Below the pieces are notes generated by a model. That model was not told the DNA's origin. It searched no databases and saw only the letters and a program-made list of their open reading frames with translations. From contig CAKZPT010000025.1 in assembly GCA_937139365.1 (NCBI GenBank), positions 1 to 37,763 of the forward strand: a stretch of 37,763 nt of DNA. Reading direction: 5' to 3'. Both the position numbers and the translations under genes were made by a program. Origin of the DNA: an uncultured bacterium. GTDB taxonomy: Bacteria > Verrucomicrobiota > Kiritimatiellia > PWTM01. Shown one piece after another: positions 22,013 through 30,207 of the stretch (the first letter of the stretch is position 1; every line of letters starts with the position of its first letter).

Positions 22013-22426
22013 TTACGGTACTGGCAACTGTCGAACCGTCGCGACGGCCTCGTACCGGTTACCCGAGTCGCGGACGTGGATGTAATTGACCCCCTCGGCG
22101 GCACCGTTCCGCTCGTAGATCGCCGAGAGGCCGCCGCCTGCGCGGATGACGCCCAGGTCCGGATCGCTGACCCCCCATCGCAGCGGCAGCAGGACCGGTG
22201 GCCCGCTAACCGGATTGGTGGAGGTGCCCACGGTAATGCCCAAATTGTCGACGGTGTTCACCACCGCCTGGAACACCACCGTTTCGCCGGCGGCGGTCAG
22301 GTTGGTGGAGGAGGGCACGATGGTCAGAACCTTGTCGAAGGACTCGACGGTTTCGCAACTTACCGTCCCCAGGAACGCCACCGCCCCCACCACACTCGCC
22401 GACGCCCACCACGCCCGAAGTGACAT
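22013..22426 (-). CDS. Small exported Ig-like (BIG2-type) protein, possible lipoprotein
   Basis: 137 aa. The N-terminus is a hydrophobic signal ending in a Cys (VGAVAFLGTVSCETVES), a non-ideal lipobox because -3 is Thr. The rest reads like a single bacterial Ig-like domain: LTIVPSSTNLTAAGETVVFQ, PLRWGVSDPDLGVI, GGLSAIYERN, GVNYIHVRDSGNRYEAVATV. The ATG at 22426 has GGAGG 7 bases upstream. The longer open frame towards 22531 is antisense or intergenic sequence. It is the last gene of the pilus-like locus, 19 bp behind the PilX-like gene. A role as a surface or envelope anchor for that machine is inference. Confidence 0.72.
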   Translation of the reverse strand: MSLRAWWASASVVGAVAFLGTVSCETVESFDKVLTIVPSSTNLTAAGETVVFQAVVNTVDNLGITVGTSTNPVSGPPVLLPLRWGVSDPDLGVIRAGGGLSAIYERNGAAEGVNYIHVRDSGNRYEAVATVRQLPVP

Positions 22427-22445
22427 CGCCCGACCTCCGTGCTGC

Positions 22446-23762
22446 TCAGAGCTCCCGCCACCGCCGCGCATGCAGGCGCACGACCGGGTTTGTGTTAAGC
22501 CCAGGTGGAAGGAGAAACGGCAGCACGCCACGATTATAGTGGATGCTTACGCTCTGGGAAAGGATGGCGCGGCGGCCGGCGAAACTCAATCCCCGGAGGA
22601 CGACGGATTGCGACAGGTCGAGGGTGTCGCCCGCATAGATGAAGCCCGAGGCTTGCGCCGCCTGTTTCATGTCGATCGTGCCCGGGGTGATGAGCGAGCA
22701 TCCGGTCGCCACGATGCCGCTCTGTTTCATCTCGATCCGGTTGCGGGCGTAGATGATGCAGTTGCTGCCGACCCGCGTGCTCTGGAACATCCGGAATTGG
22801 TCGGCGCAAATCACCGTGACGCCCGAGCCGATCTGGCAGGCCTGCTGGATGGTGAACGTGCCGTTGACGGCCAGCACTCCGCCAGGCGGGGTGCTAGTGA
22901 GGGTCTTGACCTGCTTCAACGACCGACTGCCGTTCGCGAAATTGTTCGTTCCGCCAAGGTTAATGCTCTCGTTGAAGTTCAGTCCAGAGTCACGCGTGGC
23001 CGCCTGGGCCAGAAGGCTTTCGTACCAGGCCCAGTCGATCGCGGGGACCTGCGGCGGCGAGGCTGCGTAGGGATTGCCTGGGCTGTCGAAGGGGTAATAT
23101 CCCCCGTAGATCGTCGAGCCCTGCCTGAGGCTGACGGTGCCTCCGACGAACGCCTGGTCGGAGACCGCGGCGCTCTGGCTCATGTCGAGGTTTCCCAGAC
23201 AGTAGAGGGTCTCGAAGATGCCCGCCGACTGGCTCATCGAGATGCTGCCGCTGGTGAAGACATCCCCATAGATGGACACGCTCTGCGCCATCCCGATGCC
23301 GTCCCCGCCGGCGATCAGCGCAAAATCGTCCCAGTAGTCGTACGACTCCACAACAAACTCCTGGAGCAGTCGCCTTGACTGGCGGGTGTAGGCATTGGAA
23401 CTCCCCGCGAACACGGTGTACACGTTGCCGGTCCGGCCGACGACCGCTGCGCCCATCGTCAGCCCGTTTGTAAATGCGATGGGCGTGGGAGTCTGCCGAA
23501 AGGCGGGATCGGTGTACAGCCTGGTGCGTGCGACCGCCAACGCGGATTCCGCATGCCAGAAACACTGCAGTGACTGCTGGCGCCGGACGGCCTCTGTGCG
23601 GGCGACGCCCGAAGTGGCCAGCAGACCCGTCCCGACAATGGATACGACGACCATTACCCCCAAAACAAGGGGCAACGAGGCGCCGCGCCGGGGCCGGCGC
23701 TGGGCCGCGGGCCCCGGCGAAGGGGCCGGCGAACCTGTCCGGAGAGCAGGGTGCGAGTTCAT
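22446..23762 (-). CDS. PilX-like minor pseudopilin with Gln-ladder beta-solenoid (copy 2)
   Basis: 438 aa. A basic leader ends at RRG, followed by a class III-like hydrophobic helix (ASLPLVLGVMVVVSIVGTGL) without Glu5, then EAVRRQQSLQCFWHAESALA, the PilX/GspK N-terminal pattern. From residue ~155 the chain is built of short repeats with a Gln at 160, 178, 196, 214, 307, 327, 347, 367, 385 and 403, usually as [ML]-x-Q-S (MAQSVSIYGDV, MSQSAGI, MKQSGI, LSQSVSI). This predicts a right-handed beta-solenoid with a Gln/Ser ladder. An insertion with WYESLLAQAA separates the two blocks. The start ATG overlaps the upstream paralogue's stop (ATGA), with GGAGGG just before it. A helix-plus-solenoid minor pilin at the pilus tip is inference. 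Confidence 0.8.
   Translation of the reverse strand: MNSHPALRTGSPAPSPGPAAQRRPRRGASLPLVLGVMVVVSIVGTGLLATSGVARTEAVRRQQSLQCFWHAESALAVARTRLYTDPAFRQTPTPIAFTNGLTMGAAVVGRTGNVYTVFAGSSNAYTRQSRRLLQEFVVESYDYWDDFALIAGGDGIGMAQSVSIYGDVFTSGSISMSQSAGIFETLYCLGNLDMSQSAAVSDQAFVGGTVSLRQGSTIYGGYYPFDSPGNPYAASPPQVPAIDWAWYESLLAQAATRDSGLNFNESINLGGTNNFANGSRSLKQVKTLTSTPPGGVLAVNGTFTIQQACQIGSGVTVICADQFRMFQSTRVGSNCIIYARNRIEMKQSGIVATGCSLITPGTIDMKQAAQASGFIYAGDTLDLSQSVVLRGLSFAGRRAILSQSVSIHYNRGVLPFLLPPGLNTNPVVRLHARRWREL
22533..23300 (-). repeat. Protein-level Gln-ladder repeats, copy 2
   Basis: Encodes about ten repeats of 18 or 20 residues (roughly residues 155-410 of the protein), each with a Gln in the same place. Spacing of the Gln is 18, 18, 18, then after an insertion 20, 20, 20, 18, 18. 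Confidence 0.75.
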
Positions 23763-25042
23763 AGTTCCCTCCAATCGGATGGTGTAATGACGACCGCCTG
23801 GTTGGTCTGAAGGCCGGGCGGCAGCGTGAACGGCAGAGCAGATGGCGCATAGCTAATCGTGACGCTCTGGGAAAGCAACGCCCTTTGTCCGGCGTAACAA
23901 AGCCCGCGGATCTGGATACCCTGCGAGAGGTCCAGCAGCGTGCCGGCGTACACAAAGCCCGTCGCCTGCGCGGCCTGTTTCATGTCGATCGTGCCGGGCG
24001 TCACCAGCGAAGCGCCGGTGGCCACGATGCCCGACTGCTTCATTTCGATCCGGTTTCGCGCGTAGATGATGGCATTGCTGTGCACCTGCGTGTTCTGGCC
24101 CATCCAAAACCGATCGCCGCACACGACCGTGACCCCGGGGCCGATCCAGCACTGCTGTTGGATCTCGAACATGTCTCTCACCACGAGGACTCCCCCCGGC
24201 GGCGTGCTGGTCAGGGACTTCATCTGGCGGAGGGCCGCGCTGCCGCGGACGAAGCGGACCTGGTTGCTCAGGTCCACGTTGTTGTTGAAGTCCAGGCCGG
24301 AATCCTGCACAGCCGCCTGGGCCAGGAGGGATTCGTACCACGTCCAGTCGAAGGTCGGCACCTCCGGCTGAACGGCGTAGTAGGGATTGGCGGGGCTGCT
24401 GAAGGGATAGGAGCCGCCGTAGATCACCGACGAGCCGCCGAGGTTGATGGAGCCGCCGATGAAGGCCTGATCGTAAATGGCGGCGCTCTGGCTCATTTGA
24501 AGGCTGCCCAAACAGTACAGGGTTTCGAAGATCGCCGCCGACTGGCTCATTCGGACGCTGCCGATCGAGTACACATCCCCATAGATGGCCACGCTCTGCG
24601 CGAGGTCAAGGCCCTGACCGCCCACGAGGAGCGCGAAGTCGTCCCAATAGTCGTACCGTTGTACTCGGAACTGTTGCCGCACTCGGCGGCTGAGGCGGCT
24701 GGCAGGATTCGTACCGCGGGCCTGGACCGTGTAGACGTTGGCCGACACCGTGACCGTGGCCTCGCCCACCACCCAACGCCCGGTGACCGTCACCGGCGAC
24801 GGCGCGGCGCGATAGGCCGGGTCGCCAAACAGGCGGCAGCGGACTAACGCAAGGGCTGACTCGGCGCCCCAGAAGCACTGCAGCGCCTGCTGGCGGCGGA
24901 CGGCCTCGGTCCGTCCGGCCCCGGAGGTCGCCAGAAGGCCAGACCCCACCACGACGAGCACAAGGCCCAGCCCGGTGACCAGCGGCAGGGAGGCGCCCCG
25001 ACATCGCCGCCGGGGCGGAATGGCGGAGGGCATCGCGTTCAT
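23759..25042 (-). CDS. PilX-like minor pseudopilin with Gln-ladder beta-solenoid (copy 1)
   Basis: 427 aa, collinear paralogue of the next gene. The leader ends RCRG, the membrane helix is ASLPLVTGLGLVLVVVGSGL, then EAVRRQQALQCFWGAESALA and RYDYWDDFALLVGGQGLDLA. Solenoid Gln residues stand at 149, 167, 185, then 296, 316, 336, 356, 374 and 392; at the expected position 203 there is Gly (NLGGSSVIYGG). The strongest matches between copies are the rungs (MSQSAAIF, YARNRIEMKQSGIVATG, TPGTIDMKQAAQA), while the leader and the 75-125 region differ. The ATG at 25042 has GAGGAGG about ten bases upstream. It sits 14 bp after the PilW-like gene. The best family comparison is PilX with a bactofilin-like or DUF-type solenoid; I cannot assign an exact family. 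Confidence 0.8.
   Translation of the reverse strand: MNAMPSAIPPRRRCRGASLPLVTGLGLVLVVVGSGLLATSGAGRTEAVRRQQALQCFWGAESALALVRCRLFGDPAYRAAPSPVTVTGRWVVGEATVTVSANVYTVQARGTNPASRLSRRVRQQFRVQRYDYWDDFALLVGGQGLDLAQSVAIYGDVYSIGSVRMSQSAAIFETLYCLGSLQMSQSAAIYDQAFIGGSINLGGSSVIYGGSYPFSSPANPYYAVQPEVPTFDWTWYESLLAQAAVQDSGLDFNNNVDLSNQVRFVRGSAALRQMKSLTSTPPGGVLVVRDMFEIQQQCWIGPGVTVVCGDRFWMGQNTQVHSNAIIYARNRIEMKQSGIVATGASLVTPGTIDMKQAAQATGFVYAGTLLDLSQGIQIRGLCYAGQRALLSQSVTISYAPSALPFTLPPGLQTNQAVVITPSDWREL
23843..24613 (-). repeat. Protein-level Gln-ladder repeats, copy 1
   Basis: Encodes roughly residues 144-400. It has the same 18/18/18 and 20/20/20/18/18 register as the downstream copy, with one rung (residue 203) having Gly in place of Gln. 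Confidence 0.75.
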
Positions 25043-25056
25043 GGCTTCACGCCTCC

Positions 25057-25530
25057 TCAGTTTCGCATGGTGATGGAGTTGGAAATCGCCAGCACTTGGC
25101 CAGCTCCCGTGATGACCGACAGCTCCAGGACAATCCGGCTTCCCTCCACCGAGGGCTTGAACAGGACGAGCCGGTCGTCGATCAGCGTCCGCTCGTCGCC
25201 GCCGACGGCCATGTTGGGATCGAACACGAAGTCGCCGGTGCGGTTGTCGTAAAAACGGCAGCGGACGTTCCGGAACAGATTTGTTCCGAACGTGATCGAG
25301 CCGGAAGCGATCGTGATTTCCGAGGGCGACGCGCTGCGTCCGATCCGCTGGATCTGATCCACGGCGTCAGCGAGATCGCGCTGCAGCGCCAGCACCTCGT
25401 TGGCCCGACGCAGCGCCGCGTAGGAAAAATAGAGGACCGAGCCCATCGCCACCGCCAGCACGGCCGCGGCCACAGCCGCCGCCAGCAGTTCGACGATCGT
25501 GAAGCCGCGGCGATGTTCCACAGAGCTCAT
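25057..25530 (-). CDS. PilW/GspJ-like minor pseudopilin
   Basis: 157 aa. The prepilin cleavage motif is HRRG|FTIVELLAAAVAAAVLA with Glu5 present, followed by a long amphipathic helix (RRANEVLALQRDLADAVDQI) and a beta-rich C-terminal head containing CRFYDNRTGDFVFD. Such proteins prime or cap pilus and type II pseudopilus assembly. The ATG at 25530 overlaps the stop of the PilV-like gene in ATGA, so the two are translationally coupled; the in-frame start at 25548 lies inside the upstream gene and is less likely. Assignment to PilW rather than GspJ rests on the separate PilM/PilN genes nearby. Confidence 0.78.
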   Translation of the reverse strand: MSSVEHRRGFTIVELLAAAVAAAVLAVAMGSVLYFSYAALRRANEVLALQRDLADAVDQIQRIGRSASPSEITIASGSITFGTNLFRNVRCRFYDNRTGDFVFDPNMAVGGDERTLIDDRLVLFKPSVEGSRIVLELSVITGAGQVLAISNSITMRN

Positions 25531-26006
25531 GGCCCAAGGTATGCCCACAGGCGGACGGTGTTCGGCTCTTGAACGCGGTAGCGAACGGCGACGTTCACCT
25601 GGACAACGTCATAGGACGGCGCGCCCCCGTCGATGTCGACGTACTGGATCGTGGTGAAAATTGGATAATCCCAGCCGAGCATGCGAACGGTTTCGCCGGG
25701 ATCGGACGAAAAATGATCCCATCCGCCACCGGCACGCGGCCGGACGTAAAAAACGGCGTAGCTTTGCGTCGGCGGCTTGATCGAGTTGAATCCCGCCGAC
25801 CGGAGATCTTCGAGACGGCTGTTGGCGATTTCGACAGCGGTGCGCTGATTGCGTGACACGGCCATCATGCCGGAGGAGAGGGAAACGAATGTTCCCGCAG
25901 CGATCGCAAGCACCGTCAGCAGAATGACGGCCCACAGAACCTCGACGAGGGTGGTGCCCCGTTGGGGCCGGCGGGACAAGTCACGGCGGAGGAATGGGGG
26001 CTTCAT
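25527..26006 (-). CDS. PilV/GspI-like minor pseudopilin
   Basis: 159 aa. The leader is basic (RRDLSRRPQRG) and is cleaved before TTLVEVLWAVILLTVLAIAAG, with Glu5 present. Then comes the helix continuation (MMAVSRNQRTAVEIANSRLEDLRSAG in two parts), typical of PilV/GspI, and a beta head with Trp/Tyr-rich segments (MLGWDYPIFTTIQYVDIDG). The gene starts inside the end of the PilP-like gene (26 bp overlap) with GGAG nine bases upstream, and overlaps the following PilW-like gene by 4 bp. Confidence 0.78.
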   Translation of the reverse strand: MKPPFLRRDLSRRPQRGTTLVEVLWAVILLTVLAIAAGTFVSLSSGMMAVSRNQRTAVEIANSRLEDLRSAGFNSIKPPTQSYAVFYVRPRAGGGWDHFSSDPGETVRMLGWDYPIFTTIQYVDIDGGAPSYDVVQVNVAVRYRVQEPNTVRLWAYLGP

Positions 26007-26538
26007 ATTGGCGTAGCTCCACCGGCGCCCCGTCGGGGCCGATCAGGACCACGCGGTCGTCCAAGATGCGTTCAACCCGATAGCCGTCCACTCCTTCCCC
26101 GACGCCAACCGTCCGCCCACCGAGGATGACCAGCGGCTCGCGGGGATGGCGTAGGATGCCCCGCAGCCGGGGCGGCCCCTTCTCGGAGGGCGCTACCTGC
26201 TCCGGCGACGACGGGGCCGCCGTATCACCGCGCGCAAGGGAGGAAGAGGACGAGAGATCCGTCGGCGCCGGCGCGTGCGGGGGTTCCGGCTCCTGCGGGG
26301 GCTGAAGCATTTTCAGGCCGGCAATCAGTGCAGCGATGTCGCTTGCAGATTCGATGGCCATGCGTCGCGCTTCGAGGTCGCGGACGTTACGAAGTACAGC
26401 CTCGGCCGTTGCGCGGTGCTCGGTGAACGGCTCGATCCTCTCGCGACGGCATCCCGTTACCCACAGCGCCGCCACGGCCAGGGCGACCGCCCCGTGGGGC
26501 CACCGCGGCTTCCGCCCGCCGCTGGGAGATCCGCTCAT
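25981..26538 (-). CDS. PilP/GspC-like lipoprotein
   Basis: 185 aa. The signal peptide ends in a lipobox (ALWVTGCRRER), so an acylated Cys at about residue 30 is predicted. A helical region (TAEAVLRNVRDLEARRMAIE) and a Pro/Ser-rich linker (residues ~80-120) lead to a C-terminal domain PPRLRGILRHPREPLVILGG, VGVGEGVDGYRVERI, DDRVVLIGPDGAPVEL. This has the layout of the PilP C-terminal / GspC homology region, which in known systems contacts the secretin. The homology is weak at residue level, and position between the PilO-like gene and the minor pseudopilins supports it. No secretin gene lies in the window. Confidence 0.72.
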   Translation of the reverse strand: MSGSPSGGRKPRWPHGAVALAVAALWVTGCRRERIEPFTEHRATAEAVLRNVRDLEARRMAIESASDIAALIAGLKMLQPPQEPEPPHAPAPTDLSSSSSLARGDTAAPSSPEQVAPSEKGPPRLRGILRHPREPLVILGGRTVGVGEGVDGYRVERILDDRVVLIGPDGAPVELRQYEAPIPPP

Positions 26539-26545
26539 TCTCGCC

Positions 26546-27061
26546 TCACCTGGGATTGTACGTGTAGTGGAACGTCATCTCCACCTGGTAGATTGGATCG
26601 GCGACCGGCTGCATTGCGGACAGGTTCGCTTTGGCGAGAACGACGAGATGAGCGGGGCGCTCGGCTTCCTGCATGAAAGCGAGGATACTAGAGAGACGCC
26701 CGTCGCCTCGAACGACGGCCACGAGGGCGCGCGGGTCCGCCTTGGATTCTTCGATCTGGATCGACTGCAGCGTGAAGGCGCACGACTGGGCGATCCGGGA
26801 GAGCAGGCCGCTAATGCGTTCCCGCGCCTCGCTGGGGCTGCGCGCAGTGTGGAAGCTGTTTGTCACCATGGCCCGAGCGTGGTCGAGGGTCGCGCGCAGT
26901 TCCGGCATGGTTTCGAAAAAACTGGTGCGCCATTCCGCGTCGCTCCGCAGACGAGCGCACAGAGCAGCCCCGCCGGCCGATGCGACCGTCAGCAGGACCA
27001 CCGGGGCTGCGCACCATGCCCCCCAGAGCCATTTCGATCGGAGGAAAATAGCCGCGTCCAT
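26546..27061 (-). CDS. PilO/GspM-like inner-membrane alignment protein
   Basis: 171 aa. One N-terminal membrane segment (WLWGAWCAAPVVLLTVASAGGA) follows a short cytoplasmic stretch. A helical part (ELRATLDHARAMVTNSFHTA) leads to a ferredoxin-like domain (LLSRIAQSCAFTLQSIQIE, DGRLSSILAFMQEAERP, VEMTFHYTYNPR). This is the PilO/GspM plan. Identity is inferred mainly from size, topology and its place directly after the PilN-like gene (3 bp gap). In known systems PilO pairs with PilN in the periplasm and links the cytoplasmic PilM ring to PilP. Confidence 0.68.
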   Translation of the reverse strand: MDAAIFLRSKWLWGAWCAAPVVLLTVASAGGAALCARLRSDAEWRTSFFETMPELRATLDHARAMVTNSFHTARSPSEARERISGLLSRIAQSCAFTLQSIQIEESKADPRALVAVVRGDGRLSSILAFMQEAERPAHLVVLAKANLSAMQPVADPIYQVEMTFHYTYNPR

Positions 27062-27064
27062 CGG

Positions 27065-27688
27065 TCAAGGTCCCCCTTCGCCGCGTCCCTCAGACAACAG
27101 ACCGCTGAATGTGAGCACGTATTCAAAGCCGGTTGGCCCCCGGGCGCGATGAGTCCCGGTGAGGGCAATGCTGCGCAAGCGGGTTTTGAGCAAGGGATTC
27201 CCATTCCACGCGGCGAGGATGTCCCCCTCGCCTCGGCTGCGGCGTTCAAACAGCCAGGTCGGGAACGCCACCTCAAAGTTGATCGTCTTCTTCTCGCGAT
27301 CCATGGAAAAGGACAACAGGCGCATACCGGGGGACATCGGCTCCAGCAGGGCGGCCATGAGGGGCGACAGATCGGTCCGCCGCCGGATGACCTGTTGCAC
27401 CGCCGTCAACTGGTCACGGCATACGCTCAGCCCCATGCGCAGGTCGTCCGCAAACTCGCTTAGGCGGCCGAATGCTGGATATTGGCGGCGGAACCAGCGT
27501 TCTTGGGCGTCCACGACGCGATTGGCCGACCACAGCCGGACCGCCAGTCGCGCATGGTGACCCAGCACGGCCACCGTCGCCCCACCGGTCGCGAGGAAGT
27601 ACGCGATCATGAGCGAGTACAACCGCCGCCGGCGCTCGGGGGAAGGCGCCAAGCCGCGAATCAGGTTAATCTTAAACAGCGTTGCCAT
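27065..27688 (-). CDS. PilN-like inner-membrane alignment protein
   Basis: 207 aa. It begins with FKINLIRG, the short cytoplasmic motif through which PilN proteins dock into PilM. One membrane helix follows (LMIAYFLATGGATVAVLG), then a coiled-coil-like stretch and a periplasmic ferredoxin-like domain (LTAVQQVIRRRTDLSPLMAA, GMRLLSFSMDREKKTINFEV, GFEYVLTFSGLL). The start ATG lies 17 bp inside the end of the PilM-like gene. Order PilM-PilN-PilO-PilP is the classical type IVa arrangement. Confidence 0.74.
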   Translation of the reverse strand: MATLFKINLIRGLAPSPERRRRLYSLMIAYFLATGGATVAVLGHHARLAVRLWSANRVVDAQERWFRRQYPAFGRLSEFADDLRMGLSVCRDQLTAVQQVIRRRTDLSPLMAALLEPMSPGMRLLSFSMDREKKTINFEVAFPTWLFERRSRGEGDILAAWNGNPLLKTRLRSIALTGTHRARGPTGFEYVLTFSGLLSEGRGEGGP

Positions 27689-28622
27689 CGAGCCCCCGCA
27701 AGGCCAGCCCCAGGCTGACCGTCATACGCCGTGCGATCGCCAGATCGTCAGAGACCACGCGGACCCGTCCGGCTTTTCGAACCGACGGATCGGCCAGGGG
27801 GGTCCACGCCTCCACCCCCAGTTCGGTCGCGGCGGCGAGGCGATCCATCATCGCCGGGTCCGCCGGGGTTTCGCCAGTGAGAAGCACTTTCCTCGTTGGC
27901 GCAAACCCGAGGTTCGTCTCGGCGTATTCGATCTGGCTAAGAATGTTCTCGGCCAGATAGTCAAGAGAACCGGTCCAGTCGGACGAGCCGCACACGACGG
28001 TGCGCGGATACGCGCGGCCGCCGCGGTCGAGGATCACCATGTGGGCCTGCCGGTGGGTCAGGTTGATTGCGAAGACCACCTCGTCCCCCTCCCGGCCGGC
28101 ATTCAGGTAGAGCCAAAGGTTGCAAACCGCCATCGCGCCCACATCCACCAGCACGGGAAAGAGGCCGGCTTCGGCCAGGAGGCGAACGAGGCCATTGACT
28201 GCATCACGTGGCGCGGCCACCATCAACCCCTCCAACGCTTCACACCGACCCTCACCGCTGTTGCCCGGGGCGCGAACCAAGTGGACATCGGTGCAGAGGT
28301 CCTTCGCCGGGATTTGAAGGGACTCCTCCGCCTCCAGGCGGAGGGCGGAACGGGCTTCGTCCTCGGACAAACCTTCGTAGCGGAAATGCCGGACCAGCAG
28401 GGCGCCGCTGTTCAGTGCGGCCGCGACCGTCCGCGTACGGAAACCGCCCCGGTGCCACACCTTGCGAATCCGGTGAGCCACCTCCGCTGAAGGCGCCTCG
28501 GGAGGCAATGGCTCGAACCACGCATGGGTGACCACCACTCCCCCACGTGCCGACGCGATGCAGGCGGCGGCCACCCCGGTCTCCGTGATGTCGATGCCGG
28601 CTACCTGTTCACGAATCGCCAT
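27672..28622 (-). CDS. PilM-like actin-fold ATPase
   Basis: 316 aa, no signal or membrane segment. It starts VAGIDITETGVAAACI, the phosphate-1 strand-turn of actin-like ATPases. FRTRTVAAALNSGALLVRHF and EARSALRLEAEESLQIPAKD match the PilM region after it. Later come LFPVLVDVGAMAVCNLWLYL and FAINLTHRQAHMVILDRGGR (phosphate 2), then RKVLLTGETPADPAMMDRL (adenosine loop). PilM forms a cytoplasmic ring that binds the PilN N-terminus in known type IV pilus machines. It begins 3 bp after the stop of the broken third pseudopilin, so it lies in the same transcript. Confidence 0.78.
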   Translation of the reverse strand: MAIREQVAGIDITETGVAAACIASARGGVVVTHAWFEPLPPEAPSAEVAHRIRKVWHRGGFRTRTVAAALNSGALLVRHFRYEGLSEDEARSALRLEAEESLQIPAKDLCTDVHLVRAPGNSGEGRCEALEGLMVAAPRDAVNGLVRLLAEAGLFPVLVDVGAMAVCNLWLYLNAGREGDEVVFAINLTHRQAHMVILDRGGRAYPRTVVCGSSDWTGSLDYLAENILSQIEYAETNLGFAPTRKVLLTGETPADPAMMDRLAAATELGVEAWTPLADPSVRKAGRVRVVSDDLAIARRMTVSLGLALRGLDGNAV

Positions 28623-28625
28623 GAC

Positions 28626-29073
28626 TCAGATCGGGCGGCTTGGAACGGCCTGCGGACCGCACATCTGAAAGACGCCATCCTGGTCAGGCGTCACCACCAC
28701 ACCGGCGGCCGTGCCGGTCGCCCCACCACATTGAAGCAGGAATCGCGCCGGAGCGACATCCAGGATCACGTAATTATCGGACGCAAAAAACCGCCCATCC
28801 AGATCCACAGGCCCAATGCCCGGCACCACCAGAGCGGGTCCGGAACCGATTGCGATACCGTCCGGCGCTTTGGAGTAGTCCCGGGTCGCCGCATACACCG
28901 GCCCGCCACGCCCCCCGGATTGTTCCCAGGGCGGCCTGGGCCTCCGACGCCATTGCGCGTTGGCCGTTAACCTCCTCCATCAGCGGAATGGCGACCGCGG
29001 CCAGGATCGCGACAATCACCGCTACCGCCATGTGCTCAACCAGCGTGAAACCGGGATAGCCATCTCTTTTCAC
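28626..29073 (-). pseudogene. Third GspG/PilA-like pseudopilin, frameshifted
   Basis: From the GTG at 29073 the frame reads VKRDGYPG|FTLVEHMAVAVIVAILAA, then AMASEAQAALGTIRGAWRA, after which it leaves the family pattern. One base further the other frame resumes exactly where the paralogues do: VYAATRDYSKAPDG, VPGIGPVDLDGRFFASDNYV, TGTAAGVVVTPDQDGVFQMC. One extra G at about 28899-28903 accounts for this. The membrane helix also carries His where both paralogues have Leu just after Glu5 (VEHM against VELM), and there is a longer C-terminal tail. GGAG stands about ten bases before the GTG. Either a decaying copy or a base-call error; the PilM-like gene downstream is intact. Confidence 0.78.
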
Positions 29074-29115
29074 GCTTGGGATTCTCCACAAGGCAGGCTC
29101 TTCCCACAAGCGCCA

Positions 29116-29151
29116 CGGGCGGCGGGAGCCCCTGGGGCTCTCCGCCGCCCG
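29116..29151. other. Long GC-rich hairpin between pseudopilin genes
   Basis: A 36 base inverted repeat (arms of about 16 bases with one mismatch, 3-base loop) lies between the second pseudopilin stop and the third pseudopilin start. No T-run follows in the direction of pilin transcription, so it looks like an mRNA stabilising or attenuating structure rather than a simple terminator. Confidence 0.65.
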
Positions 29152-29178
29152 TCCTTCTTTCAACTTTCCCGAGACTGT

Positions 29179-29601
29179 TTACAGCCCCTGTCGGGTGAAC
29201 TGTCCATCCTGATTGAGGATGATCGTGACCCCTGCGACATCGCCTGTGCTGCCTGCCGCCTGGATTTCATAGGTTGTGACGCCGATGCTCCTGATCGTAT
29301 AGTCGCCGGCTTTGAAGTACTTGCCCTCCAAATCCTCCGCCGTGACACCGGGGATGTTGGTGCAAGACGTACCCGCCAAGATGGTGCCGCCATTGGGATC
29401 CCGGTTGTAGGCCTTCGTCTCCGCGTACATGGCCCGCAACGCGGTCCGAATGCTGCCCAGCGCCGCCTCGGCCTCCGTGGCCATCGCCCGTCTCTTGTTC
29501 CCGCTCATCAACGGAATGGCCACCGCCGCCAGGATCGCGACGATCACCGCCACGACCATCAGTTCCACGAGCGTGAACCCGCTCTTCCGTGTCCTCTTCA
29601 T
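29179..29601 (-). CDS. GspG/PilA-like pseudopilin (second of three)
   Basis: 140 aa. The leader is MKRTRKSG|FTLVELMVVAVIVAILAA with Glu5, a textbook prepilin site. The helix continues with RRAMATEAEAALGSIRTALR, then a small beta head (MYAETKAYNRDPNGG, IPGVTAEDLEGKYFKAGDY, STGDVAGVTIILNQDGQF). It is very similar to the first pseudopilin over its whole length, so a tandem duplication. The ATG has GGAGAGGG close upstream. The probable product is a main or abundant fibre subunit, judged by its place at the promoter-proximal end. Confidence 0.85.
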   Translation of the reverse strand: MKRTRKSGFTLVELMVVAVIVAILAAVAIPLMSGNKRRAMATEAEAALGSIRTALRAMYAETKAYNRDPNGGTILAGTSCTNIPGVTAEDLEGKYFKAGDYTIRSIGVTTYEIQAAGSTGDVAGVTIILNQDGQFTRQGL

Positions 29602-29757: not shown

Positions 29758-30207
29758 TCAAATCCCCTGGGTCTGCAAATTGCCCGCCTGGTCAAGTCGG
29801 ATCACCACACCTGCGACCTCGCCCGTGCTTCCTGCACACTTCAGCACGTAGGTCTGCCGACTTATGCTCTCGATGCTGTAATCGCCTTCCTTGAAATACT
29901 TGCCCGCCAACTCCGCCGCGGTCACCCCCGGGATGGACGTCAAGGGGTCCATCGGCGCTAGCGTCTCACCCGAGGGCGTTTGGGTATAGTCTCGTGTCTC
30001 CGCGTACATGGTCCGAAGGGAGGTCCGGGCGGTCCCCAGCGCAGCCACCGCCTCGGTCGCCATCGCCTTTTTCTTGCCGCCCGCCATCAGGGGGATGGCT
30101 GCCGCCGCCAAGATCGCGACAATGATCGCGACGACCATCAGCTCGATCAGCGTCAGGCCGCTTCTCCCGCCCTGCCTTCCTTGCCCCTTCGGCTTCATCG
30201 GCGACAT
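29758..30207 (-). CDS. GspG/PilA-like pseudopilin (first of three)
   Basis: 149 aa. Basic leader ending RQGGRSG|, then LTLIELMVVAIIVAILAAAA with Glu5, KKKAMATEAVAALGTARTSL, and a head with MYAETRDYTQTPSG, IPGVTAAELAGKYFKEGDYS and STGEVAGVVIRLDQAGNL. The first gene of the locus, preceded by a sigma-54-like site. ATG 30207 is preferred because AGG lies nine bases upstream; ATG 30198 (three codons later) is possible. Prepilin peptidase would remove about 16 residues. Fibre subunit by inference from family and position. Confidence 0.85.
   Translation of the reverse strand: MSPMKPKGQGRQGGRSGLTLIELMVVAIIVAILAAAAIPLMAGGKKKAMATEAVAALGTARTSLRTMYAETRDYTQTPSGETLAPMDPLTSIPGVTAAELAGKYFKEGDYSIESISRQTYVLKCAGSTGEVAGVVIRLDQAGNLQTQGI

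Follow-up and report, generated by a model that had tools for sequence, protein, structure and literature searches.

A conserved glutamine ladder in a tandem pair of putative ComZ-like minor pilins from an uncultured Kiritimatiellia bacterium, and its lysine counterpart in distant homologues

A pilus locus with two adjacent PilX-like genes

The window, by which we mean the entire analyzed stretch of 37,763 nucleotides (contig CAKZPT010000025.1, assembly GCA_937139365.1) from an uncultured bacterium of the Kiritimatiellia, carries a pilus locus on its minus strand (Table 1). It features two neighboring PilX-like genes, whose products align without gaps over 423 residues at 63% identity and, judged by sequence, are tandem paralogues. 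For the downstream copy, the most likely start is ATG 23762, which overlaps the stop of the upstream gene as ATGA and is preceded by GGAGGGA; the TTG at 23774 given in the ORF list would fall inside its leader. In both copies the mature +5 residue is Leu, whereas the neighboring pilins have Glu at this position.

Table 1. Features of the pilus locus and overlapping reading frames in the window.
Feature	Position	Strand	Remarks
Small lipoprotein-like ORF	22013..22531	-	VSC lipobox-like motif; directly after the pair
Second (downstream) PilX/ComZ-like minor pilin, tandem paralogue	22446..23762	-	438 aa from ATG 23762; 10/10 Gln rungs
First (upstream) PilX/ComZ-like minor pilin	23759..25042	-	427 aa; 9/10 Gln rungs
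PilW-like minor pilin	25057..25548	-	Prepilin motif GFTIVE; Glu5 present
PilV-like minor pilin	25527..26006	-	Prepilin motif GTTLVE; Glu5 present
Assembly-gene block as a whole	25981..28622	-
PilP-like position	25981-26538	-	Named by gene order only
PilO-like position	26546-27061	-	Named by gene order only
PilN-like position	27065-27688	-	Named by gene order only
PilM	27672-28622	-	Pfam PilM_2, 1.2e-14
Three tandem major-pilin-like genes	28774-29163, 29179-29601, 29758-30207	-	Locus context
Antisense ORF opposite the downstream pilin gene	22146-23378	+	410 aa
Antisense ORF opposite the upstream pilin gene	23885-24847	+	320 aa

The ORF directly after the pair is likely a small lipoprotein, to go by its lipobox-like motif, with its true start probably at an internal ATG; a family search with it gave no match. 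The long antisense ORFs opposite both pilin genes are probably a by-product of high G+C codon use. The corresponding region of relatives likewise holds two or three major-pilin-like genes. Elsewhere in the genome, we found PilT (three matches above the cut-off) and ComEC, while a search for PilY1 returned no match and was uninformative, as its controls were equally silent. In genome G000, two separate ComEC competence-domain matches lie at C14:9508-10308 and C41:15427-16389, in ORFs of 876 and 1171 aa.

The glutamine ladder

Both proteins contain a series of Gln residues set at regular intervals. In the upstream copy (23759-25042, minus) these are found at positions 149, 167, 185, 296, 316, 336, 356, 374 and 392, with the fourth of the ten rungs occupied by Gly203, and in the downstream copy (22446-23774, minus) at 164, 182, 200, 218, 311, 331, 351, 371, 389 and 407. 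The rung spacing is 18, 18, 18, 93, 20, 20, 20, 18 and 18 in both copies, and on recount the spacing and the numbers of Gln rungs given by an earlier sequence-only reading proved exact. The two copies share this spacing because they are homologous paralogues; hence, their agreement is inherited rather than independent evidence, and convergence of the two copies is ruled out. When the solenoid regions were shuffled, a ladder score as high as the real one, at lags of 18 and 20 residues picked after the data were seen, was reached 2 times in 20,000 trials with one copy and 107 times in 20,000 with the other.

To place the ladder in a wider setting, we compared the pair with its closest relatives. 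The Gln-type set consists of 10 proteins from five genomes, namely the four sampled genomes of the genus (the window's included), all of which have the pair, and one of another genus in the same family. Gln occupies 93 of the 100 rung cells in this set: rung 4 is weak (5/10), with the remaining nine rungs having Gln in 88 of 90 cells. In every member, Gln is enriched at the rung columns (hypergeometric p 1e-8 to 4e-14), and the ladder exceeds chance. A candidate eleventh rung that had been proposed at an LKQ/LRQ motif (residue 273/288) fared differently, with Gln in only 5 of the 10 family members, and is not conserved. The order of the locus, from the major pilins through PilM, the assembly genes, PilV, PilW and the PilX-like pair to the lipoprotein-like gene, is kept across the five genomes; the last gene lies beside the pair in all five and is also found near two of the Lys-type loci described below. 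In one relative (G003), the second pilin gene (L014, 1501-3033) codes for three extra 20-residue coils located in the 20-residue part, each with a hydrophobic-x-Q-S turn. Thus, the coil is a modular unit, and coils are gained as such units.

Predicted structure and relationship to known systems

AlphaFold2 models of both proteins, built on four-sequence alignments, have mean pLDDT values of 84.5 and 83.4, with the solenoid mostly above 90. Both are predicted to begin with a long N-terminal helix, followed by pilin-like strands, a β-solenoid and a last long C-terminal strand. In the upstream copy these elements correspond to residues 19-73 (helix), 84-130 (pilin strands), 136-213 and 262-397 (solenoid) and 416-426 (C-terminal strand), and the downstream copy shows the same layout. 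A further helix is predicted at 234-243, inside the 93-residue gap of the ladder.

Foldseek searches against the PDB recovered ComZ of Thermus thermophilus (6QVI) as the top match for both models (E 6.8e-8 and 4.3e-8; probability 1.00), followed by the DUF3494 ice-binding proteins. The models and the fold search therefore agree with the earlier expectation of a pilin-like N-terminus joined to a β-solenoid, and every rung lies at an equivalent structural position. The suggestion that such a pseudopilin with a rod was an undescribed architecture does not stand: ComZ, a GspK-like pilin with a β-solenoid inserted before its last strand, was described in 2019, and it has been proposed to serve as the receptor for DNA at the tip of the pilus; the two ends of its solenoid are bridged by a long loop and a short helix (PMC6561018). 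The order of elements in both predicted models is that of ComZ, i.e., helix and sheet with the solenoid before the last strand, and the two systems further share a large solenoid resembling that of ice-binding proteins and a setting in a minor pilin locus. Their differences are also considerable. First, they are only about 13% identical in the structural alignment. Second, the ComZ solenoid is longer and more irregular, and no Gln ladder has been reported for it. Third, the DNA-binding lysines of ComZ sit between domains and not in a ladder. Superposed globally, the models fit ComZ poorly (TM 0.24-0.32, rmsd 14-16 Å), and the match is thus a local one of shared topology.

At the sequence level, the family profile matched ComZ and a Caldicellulosiruptor adhesin non-significantly (E 0.23 and 0.18), a PDB sequence search with one of the two proteins gave nothing useful, and Pfam and NCBIfam searches with both yielded nothing above cut-off. 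Of the domains anticipated from sequence, PilX_N (PF14341) and DUF7305 (PF23981) match neither window protein, and DUF7305 is absent from the matches of their own genome; some more distant homologues of the class that share the architecture do match DUF7305 and PilX_N, the latter in 2 of the 10 members of the homologue set. The DUF3494 proteins (FfIBP 4NU2, 7BWX) likewise have a solenoid along which a helix or loop packs; they differ in lacking a pilin part and in having their ice-binding residues on a flat face. Pfam found no DUF3494 sequence match in the window proteins, and the likeness is one of fold only.

The models also locate the rungs. All 20 rung positions, ten per model, lie in non-strand turns immediately after a strand, which places them at a corner of the solenoid rather than on a flat face. 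The sequence-only reading had envisaged a flat-face Gln ladder of the ice-binding or amyloid kind; with 20 of 20 rungs in turns and with homologues carrying Lys, Pro-Asn or Gly-Asn/Asp at the corresponding position, we reject it.

Lysine and other turn residues in distant homologues

A profile search of 338 genomes of the class produced matches in 74, many of which covered just the N-terminal part. For comparison of the rungs, we used ten alignable distant proteins that were full-length or nearly so. Of the 79 occupied rung cells in these, 38 hold Lys and 5 hold Gln; Lys at these columns is far above composition in most of the proteins (p down to 6e-9), and the residue after it is in many cases Asp or Glu. 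The Lys-type loci (L009, L023, L024, L026, L027 and L030) are of the same locus type, and their proteins are co-linear with those of the window and use the same rung columns; they differ in that Lys and a usually acidic residue replace Gln-Ser, and in having fewer N-terminal coils. Two members, L008 and L029, are without a Lys ladder. In a midpoint-rooted tree, which does not fix the direction of change, the Gln type forms a single clade with support of 100/100 on a long stem, and the Lys types fall in three further families (f25, f49 and f30).

The DUF7305- and PilX_N-type pilus proteins of the class differ again: in place of Gln-Ser, the DUF7305-matching ones display pairs such as Pro-Asn, Gly-Asn and Gly-Asp at the corresponding site, which was located by motif rather than by alignment. 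Pro-Asn, Gly-Asn and Gly-Asp are typical turn pairs, and their presence here fits the corner placement of the rungs.

The ladder is real, conserved and structurally sensible. What is new is the concerted contrast between Gln and Lys ladders, in which whole lineages swap the corner residue together; a limited literature search found no description of it, and searches concerning DUF7305, or tapirins in connection with type IV pili, found nothing useful.

A proposed role at the pilus tip

GspK and other tip pseudopilins have no Glu5. Taking the models, the missing Glu5 and the locus together, we consider it probable, though well short of assured, that both proteins are minor pilins of the ComZ kind, located at the tip of a type IV pilus and exposing a Gln/Ser corner ladder on their surface. 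The N-terminal helix, together with the pilin sheet, would integrate each protein into the pilus; without Glu5, both would sit at its tip, as GspK does, with the β-solenoid held outward as a receptor or adhesin. This placement and role are suggested by the ComZ-like order of parts, the missing Glu5, the type IV pilus locus and the presence of PilT and ComEC. The 93-residue gap would be no interruption of the ladder but a loop with a helix linking the solenoid ends, as in ComZ. If so, the rungs would form one column in the order 5-6-7-8-9-10-1-2-3-4, with successive coil lengths of 20, 20, 20, 18 and 18 and then 18, 18 and 18. Each rung Gln would stand at a corner turn between two strands, most likely pointing outward, and the resulting ridge of stacked amides and hydroxyls from Gln and Ser would stabilize the corner and may contact a ligand.

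The outward direction has as its main rival an internal ladder, whose Gln side chains would face inward at the corner and form hydrogen bonds with the backbone of neighboring coils, like the Asn ladders of β-helix enzymes, serving as a structural staple without a binding role. The immediate surroundings of the rung speak for it: positions -4, -2, +2 and +4 carry small or hydrophobic residues, of the kind expected to face the core, and strand alternation alone puts the rung at inward parity. There is also a parallel in the ice nucleation protein of Pseudomonas borealis, an unrelated protein with stacked Gln and Ser in a β-helix, whose ladders were modeled as internal, with reference to Asn ladders as precedents (PMC3196904). 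However, the Lys substitutions at the same column in several lineages, often followed by an acidic residue, disfavor a buried site, since five or six lysines buried in one column would be unlikely, and the turn pairs of the DUF7305-type relatives point the same way. We hence regard an internal ladder as unlikely, if worth serious attention.

Less plausible still, the uniformity of the ladder could stem mainly from one turn sequence being spread within the gene by duplication of coils or by gene conversion, in which case Gln would have no selected role. In favor of this are the three extra coils of the G003 protein and the repeated use of a single turn dipeptide (PN, GN, KD) in the coils of other lineages, too. 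Yet the coils are otherwise well diverged while nine rungs retain Gln almost throughout, and most coils of the Lys-type homologues can be aligned co-linearly, so that the residue changed coil by coil without general re-amplification. An assignment of the two proteins to a type II secretion system as pseudopilins, to which the weak GspK NCBIfam match of one copy (20.6 bits against an equivalog cut-off of 130, E 2.7e-4) and the GspG best match of the window's major pilins (below cut-off) might point, is highly improbable given PilM and the PilV/PilW-type genes in the operon and the PilT retraction ATPases in the genome.

Returning to the tip pilin with an exposed ladder, the pair extends the ComZ-like pilin-plus-solenoid design to an uncharacterized bacterial class, as a conserved tandem pair. 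The Gln and Lys ladders on what seems to be the same scaffold offer a natural contrast for asking whether corner ladders serve stability or the choice of ligand at the pilus tip. On a speculative view to which we attach little weight, the corner is a selectable ligand-binding ridge whose chemistry changes wholesale from one lineage to another, so that replacing one residue per coil changes the specificity of the pilus; a Lys-acid ladder would then suit polyanions, e.g., DNA, and a Gln-Ser ladder a neutral polymer, e.g., a polysaccharide.

At several homologous loci, too, a second, divergent PilX-like pilin of 443-525 aa accompanies the pilin (L050 5351-6925, L053 10776-12134 and L052 10324-11652); the presence of two tip-type pilins in a locus may thus be general.
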